Part shown: in pieces, positions 2,545-32,600 of the stretch | Position numbering within the stretch: the first letter of the stretch is position 1 | How the letters are laid out: each line of letters opens with the position of its first letter | Origin: Bryobacterales bacterium KBS 96 | Lineage (GTDB): Bacteria; Acidobacteriota; Terriglobia; Bryobacterales; Bryobacteraceae | DNA: 64,000 nucleotides | Direction: 5' to 3' | Assembly (NCBI GenBank): GCA_000381625.1 | Contig: KB906767.1 | Coordinates: 2,396,629-2,460,628, forward strand | Position numbers and translations under genes: made by a program | Notes under the pieces: model-generated | Database searches by the model: none | What the model was told of the DNA's origin: nothing | Seen by the model: the letters and a program-made list of their open reading frames with translations, nothing else

Positions 2545-3245
2545 AATTGCTCCTTGTTGTTTGCATGATGCGTTTTGTTCGTTTGAGAGGTTTTTTGCTC
2601 TCGAAACGTAAAGTCGTCGAAATAGGTAACGCTATCGGCTTTTGTCCAGAGGCCGATCTTGCCAGATTTTTGAAATGTCATGTCTTCGGCTTCGAACAGG
2701 CGCTCCTGGTTTAAGAAAACGGCGATTTTGGCGCCGCTGAACGACACTTTGAGCGTGTTCCAGCGTCCGCTCGGAATCGGGTGCTTTACTCCATACGACC
2801 GTGACGGCAGACCTTTCGGCGCAATTGACGCTCGAACGCCGTTTTCAACCTTGTACAGCACGACGTTGTTTTCGAGAGCGTTTGCGCGAACGATGTAGTA
2901 ATTGTTGGGGTCCTGGTACCGCCACACGATTCCGGCGGCCTGATCTACGGAGCCATCTACGGTCTTGAAAGCAACACTCAGTTCGCCATCCTGTAATAAT
3001 GCTCGGTTCCAAATCGCGAGTGGAAATCTGCCGGCGGGTCTATCGCGAGATAGTTGTGCCAGTACATTCGGCGGGCTGGGTGCCGATTCATCGCGAACGA
3101 TCTCCCAGCGCGGCGGAGGTCCTGCATGCGTCATGGCAGCCGTCCAATCTGCGGGGAGTTTGCCCGTAATGGCTTTGTCGAACGCAATCGACTCCGGCTG
3201 CGCCCTGATTGGCAACATCGTGATGAGCAGGAGGACAACCCGCAT
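2541..3245 (-). CDS. Secreted LamG/DUF1080-like protein
   Basis: A 234-residue exported protein (signal MRVVLLLITMLPIRAQ). The body contains motifs of the concanavalin-like jelly-roll fold used by DUF1080 proteins: an early LPADWTAAMTHAG, a central AAGIVWRYQDPNNYYIVRA, then RWNTLKVSFSGAKIAVFLN and a C-terminal KIGLWTKADSVTYFDDFTF strand. Such domains bind or hydrolyse sugars in some proteins, but no catalytic residues can be assigned here. It is the first gene of the leftward efflux operon and is coupled by a 4-bp overlap to the DUF1259 gene. The last ~15 residues are polar and probably disordered. Confidence 0.75.
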   Translation of the reverse strand: MRVVLLLITMLPIRAQPESIAFDKAITGKLPADWTAAMTHAGPPPRWEIVRDESAPSPPNVLAQLSRDRPAGRFPLAIWNRALLQDGELSVAFKTVDGSVDQAAGIVWRYQDPNNYYIVRANALENNVVLYKVENGVRASIAPKGLPSRSYGVKHPIPSGRWNTLKVSFSGAKIAVFLNQERLFEAEDMTFQKSGKIGLWTKADSVTYFDDFTFREQKTSQTNKTHHANNKEQL

Positions 3246-3279
3246 TCGATTACCGTTCCTGACCCACTGTGCGACATGA

Positions 3280-3328
3280 TTCTGAGGATTCGATGAGTAA
3301 GCGTGGGAAACTCATGAATTCTTCAGAA
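3280..3328. promoter_or_regulatory. Candidate operator between divergent efflux and two-component operons
   Basis: The 109-bp gap between the two divergent operons holds an imperfect inverted repeat: TTCTGAGGATTC at 3280-3291 and GAATTCTTCAGAA at 3316-3328. The second arm reversed reads TTCTGAAGAATTC. Position and symmetry fit a site bound by the adjacent OmpR-type regulator, controlling both directions. No convincing -35/-10 pair was assigned, so this is a candidate only. Confidence 0.35.
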
Positions 3329-3354
3329 AACAGGGTGATACTACAAAAGCAGAG

Positions 3355-4035
3355 ATGCGAATTCTCATCGTGGAGGACGACCAAAAACTCGCGCGCCAAC
3401 TCCAAAAAGGCTTGGCAGAACAAGGCCATACCGCCACATTGGCCTTCAACGGGCACGAGGGCCTACTTGCGGCCCAATGCGAGCCATTCGATGTGTTCGT
3501 CCTCGACGTCATGCTGCCCGGTATAGACGGCTTCTCATTGGTCCGCCGTCTGCGGGGAGCTGGGTCAGCTACACCAATTCTGCTGTTGACGGCCAGAGAC
3601 ACGGCCGAGGATATCGTAATGGGACTCGATGCCGGAGCCGACGACTATCTAAGCAAGCCCTTTTCTTTTAAGGTCCTTGTGGCCCGGCTGCGTGCGCTTT
3701 CCAGACGCAAGCAGGTGGAGCCGAATACACAATTGCACATAGCGGATCTTGTATTAGATCCGGAGAAGCATCATGTGAAACGGGCGGGGGTTTCGATAGC
3801 GCTCACGCCGAGGGAATTTGAATTTCTGGAACTGCTGGTGAGGAATTCCGGGCGCGTACTCACAAGAAATCGCCTCATTGAAGCCGTATGGGGCAATGAG
3901 CGAGATGTCGAAAACAATACAGTCGACGTTTTCATTCGCCAGTTACGGACGAAGCTTGAGCCGCGTGGAACGTCTAAACTCATCCACACAATCCGCGGGA
4001 TTGGATATACACTCCGCGAGGAAGAGCCGGCTTGA
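3355..4035 (+). CDS. OmpR-family response regulator (heavy-metal type)
   Basis: A 226-residue two-domain regulator. The receiver domain carries the acidic pair ED8-D9, the phospho-acceptor Asp51 in VLDVMLPGIDGF, Thr79 and Lys101 in LSKPF. The C-terminal winged helix contains LTPREFEFLELLVRN and ends with TIRGIGYTLR, the hallmark of the OmpR/PhoB class. It resembles CusR/CopR/IrlR regulators paired with heavy-metal sensor kinases. Its gene overlaps the kinase start, so the two are made together. It probably controls the divergent efflux operon through the palindrome just upstream. Confidence 0.93.
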   Translation: MRILIVEDDQKLARQLQKGLAEQGHTATLAFNGHEGLLAAQCEPFDVFVLDVMLPGIDGFSLVRRLRGAGSATPILLLTARDTAEDIVMGLDAGADDYLSKPFSFKVLVARLRALSRRKQVEPNTQLHIADLVLDPEKHHVKRAGVSIALTPREFEFLELLVRNSGRVLTRNRLIEAVWGNERDVENNTVDVFIRQLRTKLEPRGTSKLIHTIRGIGYTLREEEPA

Positions 4036-5450
4036 GAAGGCATTCCATCGGATTCCGGCTTGCTGCCTGGTATTCCATCGTATTTGCCGGCGGCCTGGCT
4101 ATTTTTAGCCTGGCAGTCTGGTTCGGCATGCGAGCCGCCGTGTATCACGCGATCGATGATGAGCTTCGGGACCGCGTACAAGGCGTTCGGACATTCATGG
4201 ATCGTCAGATTTCAGCATTGTCGATTCCGGAGATCCGGGACGAATTTCGTGAGCACTCCGTTCTCGGACCGGGTGGCGACCTGTTCCAAGTTTGTGACGC
4301 ACAGGGGCAGTGGTTGTATCGATCCGTACCGCTCGAAAGCAACAACGTGCCGATCGAAAAGCCATCTGATCTAGACCGGCCAACGCTCGTGACGACTCAA
4401 GTCGCAGGCCGCCCGCTTCGCTTCTATTCCGAACGAATTGTGGTCAACGGTCAACCATACACGGTGCAAGTAGCAACTCCGATGCACGAGGCGTTTGAAG
4501 CCATCGAGGCATTCGGCATCATTCTGGTCCTGGCGGTACCGGTGTTGCTCATCGCTGCTAGCGCGGGAGGTTATTGGATCAGCAGACGCGCGCTCGATCC
4601 GGTGGATGAGATCTCTCGGGCTGCACAGCGGATCAGCATTGAGAATTTGGCGGACCGGCTACACGTACCTAAAACGGGAGACCAGCTTCAGCGGCTCACG
4701 GAAACGCTCAACCAGATGTTCTCTCGACTTGAGGCGTCGGTACGGAGAATGAAGCAATTCACGGCAGACGCATCGCACGAACTTCGCGCCCCGATTGCTC
4801 TGATTCGCACCACTGCTGAAGTCGCAGTCCAGAGGAGGAGCCGGCAAGCCGCCGAATATCTGGAGGCATTGGACGACATTCTGGAGGAATCCGAGCGGAC
4901 ATCACAAGTAGTAGACAGTCTGATGCTCCTGGCGCGCGCGGATGCAGGCAAGGAGGTTCTCGAACGCGGGCTGGTGGATGCCTGCTCGATATCCCGCGCA
5001 GCCGCCGAACAAGGAGAGAAGCTGGCCCGAATCAGGGAACTCGCCTTTTCTGCTTCGATTCCCGACGAGCCCGTGTGGATTCATGCCGATGCCGAGGCGC
5101 TCCGTCGCGCGCTTCTCATTCTGATCGATAATGCCGCCAAGTACACTCCCGAGCGAGGGATGGTGCGATTCGATCTATCCGCGAACGACGGATTTGCACG
5201 ATTCAGCGTTACAGATACCGGGATCGGCATCGCACCGACTGATCTCCCGCACATTTTTGACCGCTTCTGGAGAGCAGATAAGGCTCGTTCTCGTTCACAA
5301 GGAGGAGCGGGCCTCGGTCTCTCTATCGCGAAATGGATTACCGAAAGCCACGCCGGGTCAATCACGGTAGAGAGTGAGGCCGGCAAAGGGTCCATTTTCT
5401 CTATGCGCGTACCTTTGGAGAAACAATGCTGGAGTTGGCCCTGCACTTAA
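4032..5450 (+). CDS. Heavy-metal-type sensor histidine kinase
   Basis: A 472-residue membrane kinase. The chosen start is the TTG at 4032, overlapping the regulator stop (TTGA) and giving MRRHSIGFRLAAWYSIVFAGG, the standard opening of CusS/IrlS kinases. Two membrane helices (about residues 10-32 and 155-180) bracket a periplasmic sensor domain. A HAMP segment (RRALDPVDEISRAAQRIS) follows. His249 in the H-box ASHELRAPIALIR is the phosphorylation site. N (LIDNAAKYTP), G1 (DTGIGI), F (HIFDRFWRAD) and G2 (GGAGLGLSIAKW) boxes are present. The acetyl-free metal or toxicant signal is unknown. Confidence 0.93.
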   Translation: MRRHSIGFRLAAWYSIVFAGGLAIFSLAVWFGMRAAVYHAIDDELRDRVQGVRTFMDRQISALSIPEIRDEFREHSVLGPGGDLFQVCDAQGQWLYRSVPLESNNVPIEKPSDLDRPTLVTTQVAGRPLRFYSERIVVNGQPYTVQVATPMHEAFEAIEAFGIILVLAVPVLLIAASAGGYWISRRALDPVDEISRAAQRISIENLADRLHVPKTGDQLQRLTETLNQMFSRLEASVRRMKQFTADASHELRAPIALIRTTAEVAVQRRSRQAAEYLEALDDILEESERTSQVVDSLMLLARADAGKEVLERGLVDACSISRAAAEQGEKLARIRELAFSASIPDEPVWIHADAEALRRALLILIDNAAKYTPERGMVRFDLSANDGFARFSVTDTGIGIAPTDLPHIFDRFWRADKARSRSQGGAGLGLSIAKWITESHAGSITVESEAGKGSIFSMRVPLEKQCWSWPCT

Positions 5451-5624
5451 GCACGGCTGCTACGAAACCGGCCTGGCGGCTCACTCCTCTGCATTATTTC
5501 TTCTCAATCTATTTGCGGTCCTGCTTGCTCCCGCGATTGCTTCGGCGCAAACGGCTTCCCTGCGCGGTCAAGTCGTGGATCAGAGTGGAGCCGTGATACC
5601 AGAGGCTAGTGTCACCCTCACGGC
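5374..5624 (+). pseudogene. 5' fragment of a TonB-dependent, CarboxypepD-reg-like receptor
   Basis: In one frame, a signal-peptide-like segment (ALFLLNLFAVLLAPAIASAQ) is followed by LRGQVVDQSGAVIPEASVTLT, the start of the carboxypeptidase-regulatory domain found at the N terminus of large Acidobacterial TonB/oar-type outer-membrane receptors. The frame is cut at 5624 by an insertion sequence, and no continuation is found on the other side of that element. The only in-frame start seen is a GTG inside the end of the kinase gene, so the true start is uncertain; the clearly receptor-like part begins near 5450. Confidence 0.6.
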
Positions 5625-6850
5625 TGTGCTCCGCAGAAAGTCCATCCGAGGCTCACGCCGCCACTTTTTCAAGCCAATACTCATGGTGGAGTCCTCCGAG
5701 AATGGCAGCACTTCGAACCGCGTGGTCCGCAGGAATATGATGGCGATGAGCGCTCTCCTGCGCAGGAAGACGTAAGGCCGCAGGTATTCCCGGGCCAAGA
5801 CTCATGTGCGGCCTCGCATGGTTGAAATGCGCGATCCAAGCCTTCAGGACAAACTTGAGATGACTCTCATTGAACGGAATCAGCAAGTCCAGGCATTCGC
5901 GGCGCAAGGTCCCGCCGAAACGCTCGCACAATGAATTCGCCTTCGGTGCCTGCACCGGTGTTCGCAACACCCGTACTCCCATGGCGGTTACCTCTTTGTC
6001 CAGTCCCTTGGAGAAAATGCTGTCCCGGTCGTGAATGAGGAATCGATATGCATGGTCGCCCGGGAGCGCCTCCCGAAACTGTTGCAAGGTCCATTCCGCC
6101 GTCGGGTGGGCGGTCACGTTGTGATGGAGAATTCTACGGGTGCCCAGTTCCATGATCACGAATACGTAAAGCGTGCGGAACGTGGCAGTGACCACAACGA
6201 AGAAGTCGCACGCCGCGATCACCTGGGCATGGTTATGGATGAAGGTCAGCCAACGCTGCTTCGGATCGGGTGTGCGAACCGGATGACCGCTCTGCACGTA
6301 CTTTCCCACAGTGCGGGGCGATACTCGAATGCCGAGTTTCAGCTTTAATTCGTTGGCGATGCGTTCCTCGCCCCAAGTCGGATTCGCGACGGCCATCTGT
6401 CGGATCAACTGCTGAAGGTCCCTGGGCAAACGCGGACGCCCACTGGGTTTCGACTTCCACCGCCAGAACAGCCGGAATCCCTTGCGGTGCCAACGAATGA
6501 GCGTGTCCGGCTTTACATGGACCAACGCGTCGCGCCATTGGAACATCCGGCTCAGGGTTGCCATCATCCAGCGCGTGGAATCGTCAGCGCGTCGTGGCCT
6601 GACCTTGCGCTCCTGGAAGAGCGCCAGTTGCTTCCGAAGAAACAGATTTTCCGCGGCGAGCGAACGGCGGCAATGTGCCGCAAGAACAGCCAGTCGGACC
6701 AGGTCAAAGACGACCAACGACACAGTCCGCACACAGTGTCCCGCGGCGCGGAAGAAGATCAACGAGGCCGGCATCAACGCTCAGGATGCCATGTTACGGC
6801 ACGTTTACTGGGATGCGATCTGTGTCCGGAAGCAGTTTTTGCGGACCACA
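5625..6850 (-). mobile_element. rve-type insertion sequence, copy 1
   Basis: A 1226-bp element with one transposase gene. Its left end reads TGTGCTCCGCAGAAAGT and its right end, read inward, TGTGGTCCGCAAAAACT, giving imperfect terminal inverted repeats that start TGTG and end CACA, typical of IS3/IS481-like elements. A second copy at 31376-32600 is almost identical, one base shorter. No target-site duplication is visible around either copy, and copy 1 truncates a TonB receptor whose remainder is missing. This points to deletion or recombination after insertion. Confidence 0.85.
5653..6777 (-). CDS. Integrase-core (rve) transposase, copy 1
   Basis: A 374-residue single-frame transposase. An N-terminal hydrophobic/basic segment and a helix-turn-helix region (RPRLPRDLQQLIRQMAV then WGEERIANELKLKLGIRVS) precede a DDE catalytic core: ACDFFVVV supplies the first Asp, HDRDSIF the second, and NSLCERFGGTLRREC the Glu. 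It cuts and joins the TGTG...CACA ends. It differs from copy 2 at only two positions noticed (Cys/Ser near residue 36 and Ala/Thr near residue 331). Assignment to IS481 versus a single-ORF IS3 relative is not settled from sequence alone. Confidence 0.9.
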   Translation of the reverse strand: MMPASLIFFRAAGHCVRTVSLVVFDLVRLAVLAAHCRRSLAAENLFLRKQLALFQERKVRPRRADDSTRWMMATLSRMFQWRDALVHVKPDTLIRWHRKGFRLFWRWKSKPSGRPRLPRDLQQLIRQMAVANPTWGEERIANELKLKLGIRVSPRTVGKYVQSGHPVRTPDPKQRWLTFIHNHAQVIAACDFFVVVTATFRTLYVFVIMELGTRRILHHNVTAHPTAEWTLQQFREALPGDHAYRFLIHDRDSIFSKGLDKEVTAMGVRVLRTPVQAPKANSLCERFGGTLRRECLDLLIPFNESHLKFVLKAWIAHFNHARPHMSLGPGIPAALRLPAQESAHRHHIPADHAVRSAAILGGLHHEYWLEKVAA

Positions 6851-23282: not shown

Positions 23283-23375
23283 TGCGTATTCCGACGATGT
23301 GAATGAAACGTTCCGACGATGTGAATAAAGTCGGAGCGGAGCGACGCTGGCATTAAAGATGATGGCTGAAATTAT
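23283..23375. repeat. Left terminal repeats of the IS21 element
   Basis: Two direct copies of (A)TTCCGACGATGTGAAT lie at about 23288-23330, and an oppositely oriented TTATTCACATGAG copy lies near 23371. These are the presumed binding sites for IstA at this end. Confidence 0.65.
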
Positions 23376-23474
23376 TCACATGAGTCAAGAGTTCGTGTTT
23401 TCAGCCGGGATGGGGGTGTGGGGCAAGGACGGCATTTGAGTGCCTTGCCCCACCTCAGCACTGTAGAAAACCAT

Positions 23475-24224
23475 TCACGATTCCTCCTCAGTTTTCCGGC
23501 CGCGCTTCTTGCGCATGGATTCGCCGTTGAGTTCGATCCGGTACGAGTTATGAACCAGTCGGTCGAGAATGCTGTCGGCGAGCGTGGGATCGCCGATCTG
23601 TTCGTGCCAGTGAGCGAGCGGCAGCTGCGAGGTCAGGATGGTCGACCGGCGCTGATAGCGATCGTCGCAAAGCTCCAGGAAGTCGCGCCGTTCGCTGTCC
23701 TTTAAGGGAGCCATGGCGAAGTCGTCCAGCACCAGGATGTCGATGCGCGCGAGTTTCGCCAGTTGGCGGCCGAAGCTCCCGTCAACATGCGCAACGGCGA
23801 GATCGCGGAACAGTTCGGCGGCCCGTTTGTGCAAAATCGTGAAGCCGTCGCGACAGGCCTTTTGCGCGAGGGCACAGCCTAACCAAGTTTTCCCGATTCC
23901 GGTGGGACCGATGAGTAGGAGATTTTGATGCTGCCTTACCCATTCGCTCGTGGCGAGCGTGCGGATGAGCTTGCGGTCCAGTCCGCGCGGGTGTTGGTAA
24001 TCGATATCCTCGACGACACCACGTTCCTTGAGCTTGGCAGCACGTAAACGCCGGGCGAGAGCCCGATTTTCCTTCCAGAGCCATTGCTGATCGACCAGCA
24101 TGGCGAACCGCTCTTCGAAGCTGAGCTGGCTGGTGTCGGCGGTTTCCATTTGTGTCCGGAAGGCATCCGCCATGCCGTACAGCTTCATGGTCTGGAGCTT
24201 CTCCAGCGTGGGTTGATTCAACAT
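23475..24224 (-). CDS. istB: IstB-like transposition helper ATPase
   Basis: A 249-residue AAA+ protein. The N-terminal IstB segment reads LEKLQTMKLYGMADAFRTQ. The ATPase core has Walker A GPTGIGKTWLGCALAQKA, Walker B DILVLDDFAM and the IstB signature RSTILTSQLPLAHWHEQIGDPTLADSILDRL near the end, with HNSYRIEL. It assists IstA by forming an ATP-dependent complex that selects target DNA. Length is normal for the family. It starts 15 bp after istA, in operon order istA-istB. Confidence 0.95.
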   Translation of the reverse strand: MLNQPTLEKLQTMKLYGMADAFRTQMETADTSQLSFEERFAMLVDQQWLWKENRALARRLRAAKLKERGVVEDIDYQHPRGLDRKLIRTLATSEWVRQHQNLLLIGPTGIGKTWLGCALAQKACRDGFTILHKRAAELFRDLAVAHVDGSFGRQLAKLARIDILVLDDFAMAPLKDSERRDFLELCDDRYQRRSTILTSQLPLAHWHEQIGDPTLADSILDRLVHNSYRIELNGESMRKKRGRKTEEES

Positions 24225-24239
24225 TTATGAGGTCCTTTT

Positions 24240-25055
24240 CTAAAAGTGATTGGTTATTGCAGAAACGTAACCGGCGGATCGTAGTAATCGGCGCCACGCA
24301 CGTTTTTTGTGGCGGGGGCCGGACCGATCGCTTTCCGGTTCGAGCGAGAGCTGGCGATCAAGCGAGTTCTTCAGGATCGAACGCAAGCTTTGATAGGAGA
24401 AGGCGCGCAACTGCAGAGCGCGCTGGCTGGCTGATTCCAAGCGCTCGTTGGAGTAAGTCTTGGCCAGACGGAGGATGCCGAGACAAGAGCGGTATCCCAT
24501 CTCCGGATGCGGCTTCGTTTCGAGAATGCTGTTTATGATCTGCGCCGTGGCCGGGCCCACCGACTCGGCCCAGTGAATCAGGCGCGATGGAGACCACTCC
24601 AGATGCGCCTGGTGGCTCTTCGGGCGATGTTCGGGATTGGTGGTATGGCGGTAGGCGGCGCTGCTGCGCGGATGAGACGCCACGCGCATGCTGCGATGAA
24701 AGATCTCGACAGTCGTGGCGGTAAAGCGTGCTTCCAAAGCCCGCCCGACCAACTGGTACGGAACGCTGTAGTAGTGGCGGTCGATCTCGACGTGATAGTC
24801 GATGTTGGCGCGCACGCTTTTCCACTCGGACAGTTCGTAGCGTTCCGACGGCAGCGGCTGCAGCGCCGGGCGGTCCAGTTCGGCAAACAGCGAGGCGCGT
24901 GTGCCCTCCCGTTTGCGGAAGCGACGCTGATTCAACCGCTCCAGCAACTCGGCAATGGCGTTATTGATCTCAGCCACCGAATAGAAACGGCGATGCCGGA
25001 GGGCGGCGACGATCCAGCGTTCGACGATCTGAACACCGACCTCGGCCTTGGCTTT
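24240..25055 (-). pseudogene. istA: istA transposase, C-terminal part (gene split by insertion)
   Basis: About 271 codons that continue the frame of 28434-29183 once the inserted element is removed. It starts at [15 protein letters not shown] just after the expected final acidic-residue region of the DDE core, and carries the C-terminal IstA domain: [32 protein letters not shown] and RMRVASH-type beta strands followed by helices and a basic tail. The disruption point is the GCTTT at 25051-25055. Joined, the two pieces give 521 residues, the normal IstA size. Confidence 0.85.
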
Positions 25056-25081
25056 GCCAAAAGTCGTCGAATGCAGGTTGT

Positions 25082-25372
25082 GTGGGAAGCACGGCGGGAC
25101 GATTCCGGATAACCCATCCCTTTCATCCACTTCGTGGAGCCGAGTTCGAACTGGTAACACGAAAGCTTACCTGGGGTGAGGATCGAGTTTTCTACTACGG
25201 TCCAAGCGGGAAGCTCAAGTCCTTGTTAACGAGTGTGACGGACGTGGCGTCGGTAGACGCCTTTGATCGCATGTCCGCCGGCCGATCGGCGTTTCGTGTG
25301 GACGATCTTTTGGAGTTGAGACGCCTTTTCGACAGCCGCTGGCAAGCCGTCGATGGAGCCAAGGGTGTGTAA
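25082..25372 (+). CDS. DUF5372 family protein
   Basis: A 96-residue protein with a GTG start at 25082. It contains [19 protein letters not shown], then [28 protein letters not shown] and [18 protein letters not shown], which I recognise as the DUF5372 pattern. That family is usually encoded next to an HTH protein and a serine recombinase, as here. The compact beta-rich start suggests a small nucleic-acid or protein-binding domain; its role in recombination (for instance as a directionality factor) is a guess. Confidence 0.75.
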
Positions 25373-25539
25373 AGTAAATATCGCCGCTACTGACAGAAGA
25401 ACTTTGCCGCATGGTGGATATGCTGACCGGTGGCATGACAAGCGTGGCTGGCAACTCCAAGGCTGGTGTACTGTTGCAAGATATACAGTGAAAGCGAGCG
25501 AGAGAGGGACTTCGAAGATTGATTCACCTGAGGTTTCGC

Positions 25540-25568
25540 TTGACTGGATATGCAAATGAGGCATAATA
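25540..25568 (+). promoter_or_regulatory. Candidate sigma-70 promoter in the serine-recombinase element
   Basis: TTGACT at 25540-25545 is followed after 17 bp by ATAATA at 25563-25568 (or after 16 bp by CATAAT). It lies 31 bp before the HTH gene, in the only sizeable non-coding gap of the element, and would drive the HTH, 92-residue and recombinase genes. Confidence 0.5.
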
Positions 25569-25598
25569 ATACTTACATACTTCCCGACGAGAAATCGG

Positions 25599-26072
25599 AT
25601 GCCCAAACTGAAACAGCCCGCCCAGAAAATGCTGGAGTTAAAGCGGACTGGCACACTCAACCCTCGTCCTGGTTCTGTTTCCGACATTCTGTTCAAACAG
25701 AATCCATTCTTCGATCCCAAGGATCTTCTTCAGGTCCGCTACGAGATGCTGCGCCGACACAGCGTGGAGGGAGTTTCGATCGTCGATGTGGCAACCAAGT
25801 TTGGCGTTTCGCGCCCCACTGTCTATCAGGCCCAGGCGGCATTCCAGCAAGCTGGCCTCAGCGGACTACTTCCCAAGCACCGTGGGCCCAAAGAACGGCA
25901 CAAACTTTCGGCCGACGTTACCGAGTACGTGCGCGGCTTGAGAACTGCCGATCCTGGATTGACGACTGTCGCTTGCGTCCAAGCCGTTCAGGAGAAGTTC
26001 GGAATCGCGGTTCACCGCCGCAGCCTGGAACGTGCGTTGGCGAGCAAAAAAAAACCGCGCAATCCGGCGTAA
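25599..26072 (+). CDS. Helix-turn-helix protein of the serine-recombinase element
   Basis: 157 residues. The central part EGVSIVDVATKFGVSRPTVYQAQAAFQQAGLSGLLPKHRGPKERHKL is a clear helix-turn-helix of the type found in transposase N termini (helix-turn-helix 28/29-like), followed by a second helical segment (VACVQAVQEKFGIAVHRRSLERAL). There is no catalytic domain. It probably binds element DNA as a regulator or accessory of recombination. The ribosome site region overlaps the candidate promoter leader. The end is Lys-rich from an A8 tract. Confidence 0.8.
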   Translation: MPKLKQPAQKMLELKRTGTLNPRPGSVSDILFKQNPFFDPKDLLQVRYEMLRRHSVEGVSIVDVATKFGVSRPTVYQAQAAFQQAGLSGLLPKHRGPKERHKLSADVTEYVRGLRTADPGLTTVACVQAVQEKFGIAVHRRSLERALASKKKPRNPA

Positions 26073-26080
26073 CATCCTCG

Positions 26081-26359
26081 ATGCCGGATGGAGCCGTGGA
26101 GGCCTACGAGGCTCTTCGCCGACAATCGGTCCAACCGGATGGACGGGGAGAGCATCTGGAAGGTCGCGGCGTTCTCATGCGCTGTGGCTTGGCAACGTGG
26201 GCTCAGCTCAGATGCGCGGCAGTATCGGCACGTCCACCCCAATCGCATGTTTCATCCGGGGCTGAAGCGCCAGCCCTCGACTCATTTGGAGTGGAACTCG
26301 TCCGCCTGGTAGCAGGGTTGATTCTCAGCGCGCGACTGGAGGGTTTTCTGCATGCCTGA
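26081..26359 (+). CDS. Small protein of the serine-recombinase element
   Basis: 92 residues from the ATG at 26081. It starts PDGAVEAYEALRRQSVQPDGRGEHLEGRGVLMRCGLATW and ends with an amphipathic, Leu-rich helix (SFGVELVRLVAGLILSARLEGF). Proteins of this pattern (AYEALR...GRGxLMRxG...) recur between the HTH and recombinase genes of related elements; this is memory of the neighbourhood, not a named family. Its stop overlaps the recombinase start by 8 bp, so they are coupled. Function is unknown. Confidence 0.65.
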   Translation: MPDGAVEAYEALRRQSVQPDGRGEHLEGRGVLMRCGLATWAQLRCAAVSARPPQSHVSSGAEAPALDSFGVELVRLVAGLILSARLEGFLHA

Positions 26360-28421
26360 ACTGAAAGTTACTCAGCAACATCTGGAACACGACGCCTATC
26401 TCTACATTCGACAGTCCACACCGCGTCAGGTCGTAGAGAATACGGAAAGCACGCAACGTCAGTATGCCTTGCGTGATCGCGCCGTGGCGCTGGGTTGGCC
26501 GCTCGAACGCATCCACGTGCTCGACTGCGATCTCGGTAAATCAGGTTCACAATCAGCAGGCCGGGATGGGTTTCAGAAGTTGGTTAGTGAGGTCGCCCTC
26601 GGCAAGGCGGGCCTTGTAATGGGGCTGGAGGTATCGCGGTTGGCCCGGAACTCCGCCGACTGGCACCGACTGATCGAGTTATGTTCTCTCGCAGGAGCAC
26701 TCATTCTCGACGAAGATGGAATCTATGACCCGGCTAACTTCAATGACAGGCTCCTTCTTGGTTTGAAAGGGACTATGTCGGAAGCGGAACTTCATTTTCT
26801 CAAGGCGAGAATGCGAGGCGGAATGATCAACAAAGCCCGGCGTGGCGAGCTCGAGATGCGACCGCCCGTCGGTCTGGTTTATCGGGATGACGGTATTCTG
26901 ATCCTCGATCCAGACGCCGAAGTACAAGCTGCGATGCGCCTGGTCTTCGAGACGTTCGACCGGACCGGGTCGGCGATGCAAACCGCGAAGCTGTTCCACG
27001 AGCAAAGTCTCCGGTTCCCTCGGCGCATTCGCAAAGGACTGAATAAGGGTGAACTGCATTGGGTGCGAGCGGCGCACTCTCGAATCCTTCAAGTGCTGCA
27101 CAACCCTCGCTACGCTGGCACATTCGTCTATGGCCGCGTCCGCACTCGCCTTTTGCCAGACGGCAGGCACAGCACGATTAAGGTTCCACGGGCGGAATGG
27201 CAGTTTGTGATTCCGGATGTTCATGTCGGCTACATCAGCTGGGAGCAGTTCGAGACGAATCAAAAGCGCCTCGCTGAAAACGCGCTGGGGTTTGGAGTAA
27301 CACGGAAAGCCGGGCCGGCCCGCGAAGGGCCAGCGCTTCTGCAGGGCCGTGTCATCTGTGGGGTTTGCGGAGAGCGAATGAGCATCCACTACAACATTGC
27401 GTACCATCAAATGGCTCCTACGTATGTGTGTCAGGAGGCCGCCATACGGAGGGCGGAGAAGGTCTGCCAGCGCGTGCCGGGCAGCGTGGTCGATCAGGCG
27501 ATGAGTAATCTCTTACTGGAACTGATGCAGCCGATGACCCTACAGGTCGCCCTGGCAGTCCAACAGGAGGTAGAGGCGCGTGTGACCGAAACCGATGGCT
27601 TGCGGCGAAAGCATGTTGAGCGAGCACAGTACGAGGCTGAACTCGCCCGACGTCGTTACATGAACGTCGATCCGGACCGCCGCCTCGTCGCTGATAGCCT
27701 GGAAGCGGAGTGGAATAACAAACTCCGTATCCTGGCGGAGGCGCAGCAACAGTATGAGCAACAGACACAAAAGCAGCGCCTGTTGATTGACACTGAAACC
27801 CGGAAGCAACTGCTCTCTCTGGCAACCGATTTTCCACGAGTCTGGAATGATCCGTGCGTCGAACCCCGCGAGCGAAAACGTATTCTGCGTCTACTGATTG
27901 AAGATGTAACGCTAATCAACGGAGAAATGATACAGGCCCACGTGCGTCTCCGCGGCGGGGCCACGCGTAGCCTCACCCTTACCAAGCCCTTACCAATCGC
28001 GCAGATTCGAAAGACGAGGCCGGAGGTGGTTGCCGAGATCGATGCACTGCTGGACCATCACTGCGATCGCGAGGTGGCGGAAGTTCTGAATCGACAAGGA
28101 AGGAAGACCTGGCAGGATGAGCCGTTCAACCTGAAGAAGATTGCACATATCCGACAGGCTTTCAATCTGAAATGCCGCTATAGCCGACTGCGGGCTAAAG
28201 GACTGCTCACCGCCAAAGAGATGAGCGTACGGCACGGCGTGACGACTACCACAATTAACGCTTGGGCGAGAGAAGGGCGGCTGAAAAAACACCGCTACGA
28301 CAATGTCCGGCGCTGCCTATACGAACCGTTGGAACAGAATGCTATTCTCAAGGGCCAAGGAGGCCGGCAGGCCAAGCAGCCGATCTTCAACGTTGCACGC
28401 GCCGGACAAGGTGCAGTATGA
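26352..28421 (+). CDS. Large serine recombinase
   Basis: 689 residues. The N-terminal catalytic domain has Ser22 in YIRQSTPRQVVEN, the nucleophile, with Arg in EVSRLARNSADWHRLIELC and the DGIYDPANFNDRLLLGLKGTMSEAELHFLKARM core of the resolvase fold. The recombinase domain follows (RRGELEMRPPVGLVY, HNPRYAGTFVYGR), then a zinc ribbon (ICGVCGERMSIHY and a distal Cys pair), a long coiled coil (residues ~430-510) and a C-terminal HTH (LTAKEMSVRHGVTTTTINAWAREGR). It would cut both strands at a 2-bp core and insert or excise the element. All catalytic features are intact. Confidence 0.95.
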   Translation: MPELKVTQQHLEHDAYLYIRQSTPRQVVENTESTQRQYALRDRAVALGWPLERIHVLDCDLGKSGSQSAGRDGFQKLVSEVALGKAGLVMGLEVSRLARNSADWHRLIELCSLAGALILDEDGIYDPANFNDRLLLGLKGTMSEAELHFLKARMRGGMINKARRGELEMRPPVGLVYRDDGILILDPDAEVQAAMRLVFETFDRTGSAMQTAKLFHEQSLRFPRRIRKGLNKGELHWVRAAHSRILQVLHNPRYAGTFVYGRVRTRLLPDGRHSTIKVPRAEWQFVIPDVHVGYISWEQFETNQKRLAENALGFGVTRKAGPAREGPALLQGRVICGVCGERMSIHYNIAYHQMAPTYVCQEAAIRRAEKVCQRVPGSVVDQAMSNLLLELMQPMTLQVALAVQQEVEARVTETDGLRRKHVERAQYEAELARRRYMNVDPDRRLVADSLEAEWNNKLRILAEAQQQYEQQTQKQRLLIDTETRKQLLSLATDFPRVWNDPCVEPRERKRILRLLIEDVTLINGEMIQAHVRLRGGATRSLTLTKPLPIAQIRKTRPEVVAEIDALLDHHCDREVAEVLNRQGRKTWQDEPFNLKKIAHIRQAFNLKCRYSRLRAKGLLTAKEMSVRHGVTTTTINAWAREGRLKKHRYDNVRRCLYEPLEQNAILKGQGGRQAKQPIFNVARAGQGAV

Positions 28422-28433
28422 AACGTAAGCTTT

Positions 28434-29183
28434 ATCTCTCGGTTTATAAGGACGCGCCGGCATAATGGCTACGGCATAGTGCTGCGCCATCTCGTGATAG
28501 GTCCGGTTCAGATCGGGCTCATAGCGGCAGGCGCGATCGACGCCGGTGCGCGGATTATCGGGTATGACTAACTTGGGAACACCCTCGAAGAACTCGAAAG
28601 CGCGCACGTGGCAGTCGATCCAACTGTGCAGATCCTGATTGCGCGTGGCGTAAACGAAGGTGTAACTCGATGCCCCCATCACCGCCACGAACAACGAGGC
28701 GGAATCGATCTCGCCGGCTTCGCGATGGTAGATCGGAATCTTCGCTCCGGCCCAGTCCACAAACAGTTTTTCGCCGGCTCGATGCTCCTGGCGCAAGACC
28801 ACATCCTGTGTGTTTTTCCAATCGCCGTAGAGCTCGCAGAAGCGGCTGTAGCCGTAACCTTCCGGCTCTTGAGCGCGATACTCCTCCCAAAGCAGCTGCA
28901 AGGTGAGGTGCTTGTGCTTTTGAAGCTGGCTATGCAGCACAACGAAATCGGGAGCGGGGCGATTCTCGCGACCCGCCGGACGCCCGCGCCGGGTCGCGAA
29001 CAGCAACTTCTCCAGATGCGTCTCGTCGCACTCGGCTGGTAGCGGCCAACTGACCCCGGCGGCGGCAAACCGCTCCAGATACCGGTGCACTGTCGACTGA
29101 CCAATGTTGCAACTCCGAGCGATCTGATCCTGCCGCAGACCGAGATCGTATCGGAGGCGAAGTATCTCTTTTATCTTCCGCAT
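28434..29183 (-). pseudogene. istA: istA transposase, N-terminal part (gene split by insertion)
   Basis: 250 codons from the ATG at 29183 (MRKIKEILRLRYDLGLRQDQ), chosen over an upstream TTG because of an AAAGGG site ahead. The HTH QIARSCNIGQSTVHRYLERF is followed by the DDE core: EKLFVDWAGAKIPIY (first Asp) and PKLVIPDNPRTGV (second Asp). It ends PARPYKPRDKA at the GCTTT junction and continues at 25055. The open frame runs ~40 codons into the insert, which is fortuitous. Confidence 0.88.
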
Positions 29184-29279
29184 GGACACCCTTTCTTGGG
29201 CCACGAAATCTCCTCCATGTCCAGTGGAGGAACTTCCGTCCCCGGTTGTCCAGCGCCGCCGTTCAGATGAACTTTGCTT

Positions 29280-29423
29280 TAGAAAATCATTCCGGCATGT
29301 GAATAATGTTTCCGATCCGGCTTCCTTCTTTATTCACTTCCCGCCGGAATCCTTTATTCACATCCCCGGAATCTTTATTCAGAATTTATCGGAACGCCCC
29401 ATTCACATCGCCCGGAATCCGCA
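29280..29423. repeat. Right terminal repeats of the IS21 element
   Basis: At least four related copies stand in a row: CATGTGAATAATG, TTTATTCACTTCCCGCCGGAA, CTTTATTCACATCCCCGGAA and CATTCACATCGCCCGGAAT. They match the left-end motifs and mark the IstA-binding end. Confidence 0.7.
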
Positions 29424-29429
29424 GGCCCG

Positions 29430-29935
29430 CATAATATAGAGTCAGTCCAGAGAGAAGCTTGCTTCCAGAAGGCCACGATGAGTCTGGGTCTTCGGCGCAT
29501 GCGCTTGAGTGTTCTACGGGCGGCTTCGCTGAGTTGCCAGTAATCCTTGGGGCAGACGTTGGGCAATTCGTGCTGCTTCCAATAAGCCCAGATGTATTCC
29601 ACTGGATTCAACTCGGGCGCGTAGCTTGGCGGGAATTCAATGCGAATTCGCCCATTCAAGCTTTGGAGATAATCGCGAACCAGCCGGCTGCGGTGTGCCG
29701 GCAGGCCGTCCCAGACCACCGTCAATGGTCGGGGAATGCAACGCTGCAGCGCTTGCAGGAAATCGATCACCTGCGGCACCTTCAACGAACCGGCGTACAA
29801 GCGGAAATAGAAACTCAAGAAGGTGATCCCGGCGACCGCTGACAAGCTCTTCCAATTGAAGTTGTATTCCAGCACCGGAGTTTCGCCGCGCGGCGCCCAG
29901 GTGCGACAACGGTGCGGCCTGACCAGCGTCAACAA
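29430..29935 (-). pseudogene. IS630-family transposase fragment
   Basis: About 165 residues of the C-terminal DDE_3 core: RPHRCRTWAPRGETPVLEY, VVWDGLPAHRSRLVRDYL (second Asp), FPPSYAPELNPVEYIWAYWK (the Glu in the NPVE motif) and FWKQASLW at the end. The first catalytic Asp, HTH region and start are missing: the frame is cut near 29936 where group II intron sequence begins, and the far end touches the IS21 terminus. It is a dead remnant squeezed between two later insertions. Confidence 0.85.
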
Positions 29936-30126: not shown

Positions 30127-31375
30127 TTATGTGACGTGTGGAAATGGAACGGCGTTCGGAAAGCGCCGCACTCGGTACTCAGCAAACAGCCCAAGCGTCT
30201 CATGCAGCCATTTCGTACTCCACCGTTTCCACCCCAACCCTTTGCGCCCTCTCGCACGCATCAAGTGCCTCCGAACCTTCATCTCTACCCATCGTTTGAC
30301 CATCGAGAAGCAGCGGCTCGAATCGCCGATCCGAAAATAATTCACCCAACCTCGCAGGATCGGATTAAATTCCTCAATCACTTTCCTCACGGGCTGACTG
30401 ATGTTACGCCGGAAGATCTCCCGGAGTTTTGCGAACAGCGCGGTCCGCTTCTGCAGCTTCGGCGCATAGTACACTCGCCACACCCGATTACGACTTTGGA
30501 TGCGGCGATACTCAAAACCCAGGAACGAAAAGCTCTCTTCCTTTGCCAGATCCACCATCCGGCTTTTGTCCTCATTGATCTCAACGTGCAGTTTCGCCAA
30601 CTCCTCCCGGACTCGCCTTTCCACCGCTTCAAGCAGCCAGTTATGCCGCCGGTATGCGTCAACTAATATCACCAGGTCATCCGCAAAACGTGCGTATTGA
30701 ATGTTGGTGTATTGTCCGCGCCGCGTAATGGTAATCGCTTTTTCCAGCATCCGATCCACCTCGTTGAGGTAGAGGTTACTGAGCATCGGCGATATCACCC
30801 CGCCTTGCGGTACGCCCTTCTGCCCAGTCGCCTTCAGCGTCGTCTTAAGCAAATGCATGACCGCGTCATCTTGTACCCGCCGCGCTACCTTCTCTAACAA
30901 CAGACAATGCTGAACGTTGTCGAAGTAGGCCCGCAAGTCAATATCAATGATTCGCGTCTTGCCCTCCACGATCGCCTGTGCCACTCGGTTTACCGCTTGG
31001 TGCGCTGTCCGTTTCGGCCGGTATCCATACGAGCCCGGTTGGAAGTCAGCTTCGAAGATCGGCTCCAGAATGAGCTTGAGAGCTCCCTGCACCACTCGGT
31101 CACGGATAGCCGGAATTGACAGAACCCGGACTTTTTTGCCCGCGCCCTTCGGAATCTCCTTCTTCCGCGCCCTCATGGGCCGGTACGTCTTTGAGACCAG
31201 TTCATCCCTTATCTGATCCAGGAAACTCTCCACTCCGCTTTCCTCGATGGCTTCGAACGTGACCCCATCAATCCCGGGTGCCCCGTCATTACTCTTCGCC
31301 ATCTGGTAAGCCTCGTGCAGTGTTTCCCTTTTGCAGACATGGACGTATAGCCCCCAGAAACGCCAAGTTGGTTCC
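30127..31375 (-). pseudogene. ltrA: Group II intron reverse transcriptase/maturase, N-terminus lost
   Basis: About 415 residues of maturase. It runs from EPTWRFWGLYVHVCK through NDGAPGIDGVTFEAI, FQPGSYGYRPKRTAHQAV, QGGVISPMLSNLYLNEVD, the catalytic YARFADDLVIL (FADD box), SFSFLGFEYRR and the X domain/C-terminal NPILRGWVNYFRIGDSSRCF. No HNH endonuclease motif follows. The frame stays open into the IS as far as an ATG at 31548, giving a fortuitous IS-intron fusion; the native start is gone. Reverse transcriptase residues themselves are intact. Confidence 0.85.
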
Positions 31376-32600
31376 TGTGATCCGCAGAAAGTCCATCCGA
31401 GGCTACGCCGCCACTTTTTCAAGCCAATACTCATGGTGGAGTCCTCCGAGAATGGCAGCACTTCGAACCGCGTGGTCCGCAGGAATATGATGGCGATGAG
31501 CGCTCTCCTGCGCAGGAAGACGTAAGGCCGTAGGTATTCCCGGGCCAAGACTCATGTGCGGCCTCGCGTGGTTGAAATGCGCGATCCAAGCCTTCAGGAC
31601 AAACTTGAGATGACTCTCATTGAACGGAATCAACAAGTCCAGGCATTCGCGGCGCAAGGTCCCGCCGAAACGCTCGCACAATGAATTCGCCTTCGGTGCC
31701 TGCACCGGTGTTCGCAACACCCGTACTCCCATGGCGGTTACCTCTTTGTCCAATCCCTTGGAGAAAATGCTGTCCCGGTCGTGAATGAGGAATCGATATG
31801 CATGATCGCCCGGGAGCGCCTCTCGAAACTGTTGCAAGGTCCATTCCGCCGTCGGGTGGGCGGTCACGTTGTGATGGAGAATTCTACGGGTGCCCAGTTC
31901 CATGATCACGAATACGTAAAGCGTGCGGAACGTGGCAGTGACCACAACGAAGAAGTCGCACGCCGCGATCACCTGGGCATGGTTATGGATGAAGGTCAGC
32001 CAACGCTGCTTCGGATCGGGTGTGCGAACCGGATGACCGCTCTGCACGTACTTTCCCACAGTGCGGGGCGATACTCGAATGCCGAGTTTCAGCTTTAATT
32101 CGTTGGCGATGCGTTCCTCGCCCCAAGTCGGATTCGCGACGGCCATCTGTCGGATCAACTGCTGAAGGTCCCTGGGCAAACGCGGACGCCCACTGGGTTT
32201 CGACTTCCACCGCCAGAACAGCCGGAATCCCTTGCGGTGCCAACGAATGAGCGTGTCCGGCTTTACATGGACCAACGCGTCGCGCCATTGGAACATCCGG
32301 CTCAGGGTTGCCATCATCCAGCGCGTGGAATCGTCAGCGCGTCGTGGCCTGACCTTGCGCTCCTGGAAGAGCGCCAGTTGCTTCCGAAGAAACAGATTTT
32401 CCGCGGCGAGCGAACGGCGGGAATGTGCCGCAAGAACAGCCAGTCGGACCAGGTCAAAGACGACCAAGGACACAGTCCGCACACAGTGTCCCGCGGCGCG
32501 GAAGAAGATCAACGAGGCCGGCATCAACGCTCAGGATGCCATGTTTACGGCACGTTACTGGGATGCGATCTGTGTCCGGAAGGAGTTTTTGCGGACCACA
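31376..32600 (-). mobile_element. rve-type insertion sequence, copy 2
   Basis: 1225 bp, same orientation as copy 1 at 5625-6850 and almost identical; one C present in copy 1 near 5656 is missing here. Ends are TGTGATCCGCAGAAAGT and, inward from the right, TGTGGTCCGCAAAAACT. The left end joins the truncated maturase and the right end joins a truncated unknown frame; no target duplication is visible. The two copies are direct repeats about 25.7 kb apart. Confidence 0.85.
31403..32527 (-). CDS. Integrase-core (rve) transposase, copy 2
   Basis: 374 residues, intact, differing from copy 1 by only the two substitutions noted there. All three DDE residues are present (ACDFFVVV, HDRDSIF and CERFGGTLRREC). 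Since both copies are intact, either could mobilise itself or, acting at outer ends, the segment between them. Confidence 0.9.
   Translation of the reverse strand: MMPASLIFFRAAGHCVRTVSLVVFDLVRLAVLAAHSRRSLAAENLFLRKQLALFQERKVRPRRADDSTRWMMATLSRMFQWRDALVHVKPDTLIRWHRKGFRLFWRWKSKPSGRPRLPRDLQQLIRQMAVANPTWGEERIANELKLKLGIRVSPRTVGKYVQSGHPVRTPDPKQRWLTFIHNHAQVIAACDFFVVVTATFRTLYVFVIMELGTRRILHHNVTAHPTAEWTLQQFREALPGDHAYRFLIHDRDSIFSKGLDKEVTAMGVRVLRTPVQAPKANSLCERFGGTLRRECLDLLIPFNESHLKFVLKAWIAHFNHARPHMSLGPGIPTALRLPAQESAHRHHIPADHAVRSAAILGGLHHEYWLEKVAA

Follow-up and report, generated by a model that had tools for sequence, protein, structure and literature searches.

The element and its host gene

A window of 64,000 nt (the whole stretch of DNA analysed, to which all coordinates refer) from Bryobacterales bacterium KBS 96 (contig KB906767.1, positions 2,396,629-2,460,628) contains a compact mobile element encoding a large serine recombinase, which interrupts the transposase gene istA of an insertion sequence (IS) of the IS21 family. 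Most copies of the element and its relatives that were examined are inserted at DNA coding for the active-site region of transposases, in several IS families. The features of the locus are listed below, including the attachment sites (attL and attR at the junctions, attP in the element), a helix-turn-helix (HTH) protein gene and a small open reading frame (ORF); related loci are numbered with the prefix L.

25054-28431, plus strand: mobile element, 3378 bp with one TT counted; L042, L043 and L044 of the same genome share these ends, as does L041, which is nearly identical but one base shorter
25054-25055, plus strand: crossover dinucleotide TT in attL, from copy comparison and the end rule of relatives
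28432-28433, plus strand: crossover dinucleotide TT in attR, from the same two sources
25056-25081, plus strand: left-end arm of attP, with ATGCA after 15 nt; by eye, it matches the right-end arm imperfectly in inverted orientation
28406-28431, plus strand: right-end arm of attP, containing GGTGCAGTATGA and 10 nt
25082-25372, plus strand: DUF5372 gene, 96 aa, HPFHP motif; Pfam PF17342, E = 9.6e-23; NCBI names a relative Y4bD/Y4pK family
25599-26072, plus strand: HTH protein, 157 aa; HTH_28, E = 2.7e-12
26081-26359, plus strand: conserved small ORF of 92 aa whose end overlaps the start of the recombinase gene; relatives of both clades have tblastn matches and a corresponding small ORF
26352-28421, plus strand: large serine recombinase, 689 aa; Resolvase 8.3e-21, Recombinase 4.6e-16, Zn_ribbon_recom 3e-06
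24240-25053, minus strand: C-terminal part of istA (IS21, target), its start lying shortly ahead of the codon for the catalytic Glu; NF033546 positions 228-293 of 294
28434-29204, minus strand: N-terminal part of istA (IS21, target); NF033546 positions 1-230 of 294 (ORF 28317-29204)
23475-24224, minus strand: istB of the host IS21; NF038214 IstB, E = 1.8e-76, above cut-off
23283-29423, no strand given: host IS21 carrying the element; the same stretch, with one mismatch, occurs in copy L044, where it is flanked by the 7-bp direct repeat TGGACCG

The first-pass annotation of the window had proposed that removing the insert between two copies of GCTTT (25051-25055 and 28429-28433) restores istA, and the joined window flanks do give one continuous, open IstA frame. 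Its view that attL, attR and the empty site can be read directly agrees with the matching gene order and end structure of relatives. The compactness of the element and its content of four genes (DUF5372, HTH, 92-residue ORF and recombinase) were likewise correct, with margins of 28 bp on the left and 10-12 bp on the right where 27 and 12 had been given.

Relatives of the element

The relatives comprise 34 loci from 84,980 species genomes, further loci from genomes already holding one, and plasmid stretches (14 taken from the 404 records matching at E<=1e-80, then 16 more from the same records). Among same-phylum genomes, 12 of 297, the own genome included, have a match at E<=1e-80. The hosts include Acidobacteriota, Pseudomonadota and Actinomycetota, and single metagenome bins labelled Chlamydiota and Bacillota. 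Short re-fetches (L001-L006, L047-L052, L055, L056, L058, L059 and L061-L122) and duplicates (L143, L157) were dropped, as were the outgroup and L029, L040 and L126, which have no HTH match over 80 residues (the gene or the fetched part is without the HTH). Targets were counted among the 73 loci with the element's HTH gene and read from joined flanks; all 73 have a recombinase match and 71 a DUF5372 match.

Nine of the 73 loci stand outside the target count, namely L018, L019, L023, L053 and L054 (flanks of at most 14 bp on both sides), L127 (left flank of 10 bp), L128 (ends unsure), and L057 and L179 (an end not found). The left ends of L128, L162, L163, L175, L176 and L186 were placed by hand, and that of L159 is lost. 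Among the 64 assigned targets, 53 rest on a junction-spanning tblastn match, and in 52 of these the reference is not the locus itself; in L177 and L185 the match covers little of the right flank. The remaining 11 (L013, L015, L031, L034, L124, L159, L166, L168, L041, L125 and L145) were assigned from one flank, from family models or by eye. The target gene resumes on both sides of the ends in 53 loci.

Targets in insertion sequence genes

An IS gene is interrupted in 61 of the 64 loci with an assignable target, or in 56 of 59 when distinct junctions are counted. IstA is the target in 36 loci, 35 at one codon and one (L015) at another, and IS66 TnpB in 16, all at a single Lys codon. The other IS targets belong to ISNCY (three), IS3 (two), and IS481/IS3-like, ISL3, IS630 and IS4 families (one each). 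The three remaining loci lie in a tyrosine recombinase gene (L145), in a place outside IS genes (L041) and in a gene without a recognised family (L125). Different IS families are used within single hosts: close relatives on one plasmid of NGR234 occupy ISNCY (L167) and IS21 (L184), in Sinorhizobium medicae L166 interrupts an IS3 (its right end has a small deletion, seen by eye) and L178 an IS21, and the four Kibdelosporangium loci (L030-L033) have three IS21-like targets and one IS481-like target.

The junction in IstA falls at PRD^KAKxE or its counterpart, and 35 of the 36 IS21 insertions cut one codon, 12 nt before the codon of the catalytic glutamate. In the window the cut lies within the K258 codon, which starts 12 nt before the E262 codon, and E262 aligns without gaps to residue 233 of IS5376 IstA. 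The DDE motif of the IS5376 transposase is given as D124, D187 and E233 in the available part of its description (PMC10122671). A cut codon for K with E four residues on was found in 32 of the 33 IstA sites readable on both sides; the exception, L173, has G in place of E beside a small deletion (by eye). The same K-x-x-x-E arrangement is present at the ISNCY sites L009, L014 and L167 and in the tyrosine recombinase gene of L145, and N-x-x-x-E occurs at L031, L034, L168 and also the non-coding L041. In NCBIfam models, the part after the junction starts at position 228 of 294 in IS21, 237 of 368 in ISNCY, 314 of 369 in IS3, 229 of 284 in IS481, 337 of 370 in ISL3 and 291 of 332 in IS4; for the families other than IS21, we take these positions to be the last acidic motifs.

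At the DNA level, YTC (an antisense Glu codon) occupies positions -13 to -11 in 27 of 28 IS21 sites, against 295 of the 7030 TT sites of the window. It was also seen by eye in 10 of 12 sites in other targets (TnpB not counted), including L041, L125 and L145, and is lacking in L124 and L039. The presence of YTC in sites outside IS21, those three included, suggests recognition of the DNA by the enzyme and not of any property of the encoded protein. The L145 site is the GKGRKER motif of the tyrosine recombinase gene, which resembles the transposase motif. The site of L041 (G000:C1:785000-794000) still reads TTC at -13.

Ends and crossover core

Exact comparison of the own-genome copies gives a left end beginning TTGCCAAAAG... 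and a right end finishing ...GTAAGCTTT. The base preceding TT is C on the left and T on the right in L042, and the left side of L041 reads CCCTATT, so that the bases before TT again differ between its two ends. The core is therefore the 2-bp TT and the GCTTT repeat partly a coincidence. GCTTT, which had been put forward as the core, is ruled out, since the copies and the relatives have only the dinucleotide in common.

The right end of relatives consists of a GYANTATGA-like motif, 10 nt and the dinucleotide, and the left end of the dinucleotide, 15 nt and an NTGCA-like motif, the two arms forming an imperfect palindrome about the core (by eye). The dinucleotides of both ends are identical in 67 of the 71 loci with both ends placed. 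The agreeing dinucleotide is TT in 62 loci and, once each, AA (L026), TA (L015), CA (L053), TG (L125) and CG (L127, ends unsure). L026 cuts the same TnpB codon in reverse orientation with AA instead of TT, as the rule for serine recombinases predicts.

Scarless insertion

The joined flanks of three relatives (362-nt query) were searched in the plasmid collection. The empty site of L164 (IS21) matches 136 plasmid records, 106 of them over at least 80% of the query, and the best place has at least 99% identity in 64 of the 136; the 20 matches listed all cover 362/362 nt in one piece, and many are annotated istA. L167 (ISNCY) gave 127 matching records, with coverage of 80% or more in 89; the 20 matches listed all cover 362/362 in one piece at 95.6-97.5%. 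The L180 site (IS66 tnpB) matches 14 records, of which 11 reach 80% coverage or more; the best, annotated tnpB, covers 362/362 at 99.4%. The joined flanks of all three thus exist uninterrupted in many plasmids, and insertion is therefore scarless.

The comparison with an uninterrupted IS21 suggested at first reading could thus be made at the nucleotide level for three relatives and not for the IS21 of the window itself. No uninterrupted copy was found in the own genome, nor among the 20 matches listed from 396 same-phylum genomes at E<=1e-120, a search in which at most three candidates per genome were scored for most genomes. Those 20 matches are three pieces of the interrupted copies of the own genome and 17 IstA relatives of 46-57% identity.

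Copies in the own genome

In the genome of KBS 96 the recombinase occurs in four copies with 100% identity; two further relatives have diverged, and one of these is partial. Three copies lie in IstA: the window copy, L042 and L044. The IstA that hosts L042 is about 60% identical to that of the window and is cut at the same codon, and L044 lies in the same IS21 as the window copy, the whole of which is shared. This could reflect transposition of the composite, for which IstA would have to be supplied in trans, or separate insertions into two identical IS21 copies. A 7-bp direct repeat such as that of L044 was not seen around the IS21 copy in the window.

Genes carried by the element

The recombinase has its PF00239 catalytic domain at residues 15-166 of 689, with S22, R96 and R99 invariant among 16 aligned sequences, followed by PF07508 and PF13408 (Recombinase domain and zinc ribbon) above curated cut-offs. 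A MerR/HTH_17-like stretch at residues 618-653 is below its curated cut-off, and a low-confidence model (predicted template modelling score, pTM, 0.34) places long helices at 377-437 and 444-478 in the C-terminal part, candidates for the coiled-coil segment of large serine recombinases. The best NCBIfam match is XisF (NF041201; residues 18-521, E = 8.1e-28), at 97.6 bits against a cut-off of 375. No match to the recombinase was found in 50,697 phage records at E<=1e-20. Six recombinases (L008, L009, L012, L123, L132 and L133) have an earlier stop at residues 683-686, and those of L007 (residue 473), L145 and L168 stop further inside.

The DUF5372 protein, in which H12, P13, H15 and P16 are invariant among 21 aligned sequences, has no match in NCBIfam or, by sequence, in the Protein Data Bank. 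Its model, of moderate confidence (mean predicted local distance difference test score 83.7, pTM 0.55), is a small barrel with a helix, and fold matches are weak and SH3/KOW-like (best E = 7.4e-3). The HTH protein matches IS630 (1.7e-14), IS481 (4.5e-13), IS21 (3.8e-5) and ISNCY (1.5e-4) in NCBIfam, all below curated cut-offs, and the similarity falls on the N-terminal part of those transposases. These four families are also families in which the elements are found, although winged HTH domains are common. The 92-residue ORF has no NCBIfam match and carries a one-base deletion in L041. All three accessory genes are kept in both main clades, and DUF5372 is present without a detectable HTH gene in some more distant relatives (L060, L129, L140). 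The DUF5372, HTH and small proteins may aid target choice, direction control or regulation, roles which are guesses; the HTH accessory, which is similar to the DNA-binding region of the transposases targeted, might contribute to locating the prey.

Some elements have themselves been interrupted. In Kibdelosporangium L030-L033 the recombinase gene is broken by about 3.4 kb (in L030 at GTMSEA, about 2690-6000), which in L030 contains three ORFs resembling tyrosine recombinases (by eye, a recombinase trio), and four different targets hold these loci despite the interrupted gene. L021 has an IS21-like istA and istB pair (by eye) between its HTH and recombinase genes; the L025 element is equal to it in total length.

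Recombinase tree and distant relatives

In a recombinase tree of 59 rows, 16 of them outgroup, the IS66-tnpB elements form one group of 12 assigned rows and L023 (support 100/100), and L026 branches at its base. Outside this group and the outgroup, IS21 targets are scattered and interspersed with ISNCY, IS3, ISL3 and IS4. The outgroup stands apart (100/99); the program warns of some long branches meeting there.

The distant recombinases, at about 35-42% identity, have similar ends. Among the 36 outgroup loci, 13 have no end by the pattern, which is loose, so that chance matches are possible. Targets are given in 12 of the 36; the others include L146, beside an ordinary-looking ORF, and L045 of the own genome. 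In L134, L135 and L141 (AA) and L129 (GG) the right flank reads as reverse transcriptase of a group II intron, and as IstB in L137 and L138 (GA), the second recombinase of L133 (TC) and L144 (GG). L152 has IS66 TnpB on its right, at another place, and L151 an IS91 transposase with an uncertain end. Of the loci dropped for want of an HTH match, L029 is in IS3 and L126 in an integrase core identified by eye, without an NCBIfam match. Joining the flanks of L137 and L138 gives an open IstB-like frame across the junction, and L134, joined with a one-base shift within an A run, reads DIKGLF-DNLPHDLL (by eye). That pattern yielded no join for L135 or L141, whose assignment is based on copy comparison and right flanks.

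Interpretation and alternative explanations

This compact serine-recombinase element is a genetic parasite of parasites, which inserts without a scar into other jumping genes. We regard it as a self-mobile large-serine-recombinase element that targets the catalytic-glutamate DNA of DDE transposases, with a probability of roughly 0.88. As far as sequence comparison reaches, this reading draws on the ends, the core, the scarless empty sites of three relatives, the recurrence of a single codon and the presence of near-identical elements in several families. In the proposed mechanism, the recombinase would join attP of an excised circle to attB through a staggered exchange of 2 bp at TT, and the only trace left would be one TT at either end; we infer that the recombinase itself performs the insertion and that the circle is the intermediate. 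It would read the DNA coding for the catalytic-glutamate motif K/N-x-x-x-E of DDE transposases. With Lys or Asn at the cut codon and glutamate four residues later, one element would therefore fit the matching place in several IS families, IS21 istA being its most frequent home in this sample. The benefit is probably a target that is dispensable, multi-copy and spreading.

Several observations weigh on the other side. The sample was built by similarity to this recombinase, contains near-copies and is rich in rhizobial plasmids. L125 matches no recognised target family, L015 cuts istA at its different codon, L039 (IS630) and L124 (IS4) have no E at +4, and L041, outside IS genes, is one of three independent sites in the own genome. 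The end dinucleotides disagree in 4 of 71 loci (L124, L128, L159 and L166). Some true sites (L168, L034, L041 and L124) receive poor scores from a weight matrix built on the IS21 sites, so sequence reading alone does not demonstrably account for the tropism, and survival bias against insertions in useful genes could contribute.

The scarless junctions would also suit a reversible latch, in which excision under some signal re-arms the transposase, as excision elements do elsewhere. The conserved accessory genes fit such a role, as does the best NCBIfam match of the recombinase, the fdxN element excision recombinase XisF (below cut-off). However, the similarity to XisF is distant and the same fold also serves integrases, and we consider a latch unlikely. 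The stray site of L041 and the weak matrix scores at some true sites are what would be expected of a low-specificity recombinase that inserts at many TT sites, the IS tropism then being survivorship in dispensable, repeated genes. Survivorship, however, picks no codon within a dispensable gene, and 35 of 36 IstA insertions share one codon of a gene of about 1500 bp, as all 16 TnpB insertions share one Lys codon; it is therefore refuted as a full account, which makes this explanation highly improbable, and may still add to the bias. That a single insertion in an ancestral IS21 spread only by IS21 transposition has a next to negligible chance, for although the L044 repeat indicates that the composite or its empty IS21 transposed, the presence of a 100% identical recombinase in two IS21s whose IstA proteins are about 60% identical, and also at a site outside IS genes, together with the L167 and L184 relatives in different IS families on one NGR234 plasmid, refutes hitchhiking as the only route.

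Targeting of catalytic-glutamate DNA may be one case of a broader pattern. It seems rather more probable than its opposite that a superfamily of compact serine-recombinase elements addresses active-site or motif codons of mobile-element enzymes, its clades retargeting as the end architecture is kept. The addresses would be K/N-x-x-x-E of DDE enzymes, IS66 TnpB, IstB (before DAKMT..LLDRLTHH and, by right flank, at the P-loop) and FDN of the group II intron reverse transcriptase. On the main reading, mobile elements here parasitise mobile elements by reading the DNA of their most conserved catalytic motif, with the conservation of a protein active site yielding a DNA target that persists across divergent IS families. 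The outcome is many reusable, dispensable sites and a broken host IS gene, possibly a natural brake on insertion sequences. The recombinases offer a natural set for following on a tree how target choice shifts from one short DNA motif to another, a question relevant to programmable integration.

Comparison with known systems

The large serine recombinases of SPbeta (YokA/SprA), phiC31 and Bxb1 share with the element the Resolvase, Recombinase and zinc-ribbon domains and the 2-bp core. YokA is matched by sequence (9dxh, E = 8.7e-11), and Foldseek returns SPbeta, phiC31 and Bxb1 structures at low TM-scores from the model of pTM 0.34. Unlike these recombinases, that of the element has a longer C terminus, three accessory genes and targets in the genes of other mobile elements. 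XisF, too, is the serine recombinase of an element interrupting a gene, whereas the element here is multicopy, lies in transposase genes and scores under the curated cut-off. XisF carries out programmed excision of one nif-region element in cyanobacteria. The IS607 family, with an N-terminal DNA-binding domain before a small serine catalytic domain, differs from the element, whose catalytic domain is N-terminal. Tn5053-type elements use different transposition enzymes and a different target. These res-site hunters share the preference for sites in other mobile elements, according to the part of the source available (PMC7765201).

Multi-targeting DUF4368/TndX-like recombinases resemble the element in using several gene families per recombinase and, in an example, a TT core; the available text of PMC10083194 names no transposase targets, and for one example gives an AT-rich motif rather than an active-site codon. 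DUF4368 is not among the seven Pfam families that match the element recombinase at E<=1. In helper-embedded phage-inducible chromosomal islands, an integrase clade has likewise moved repeatedly to new sites inside the genes of another mobile element, but these, as described in the accessible portion of PMC10111431, are helper-dependent satellites with tyrosine integrases in prophage late genes, in contrast to the serine recombinase here. Elements moved by large serine recombinases are already known, as are integrase clades favouring the genes of other mobile elements (accessible portion of PMC10111431). No description of a tropism for transposase catalytic codons across IS families was found in open-licence literature by titles and the starts of abstracts.

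The NGR234 loci L167 and L184 are members of the element's family. The NGR234 genes y4bA-D and y4pH-K presumably correspond to it, a likening made from gene names alone. A literature search for y4bD, y4pK, y4bA and y4pH found no relevant paper.

Surroundings of the host insertion sequence

IS-like ORFs were noted by eye at 29375-29935 and 31403-32527 of the window. Beyond the IS21, positions 30127-31548 hold a 473-residue ORF that resembles a group II intron reverse transcriptase (by eye).

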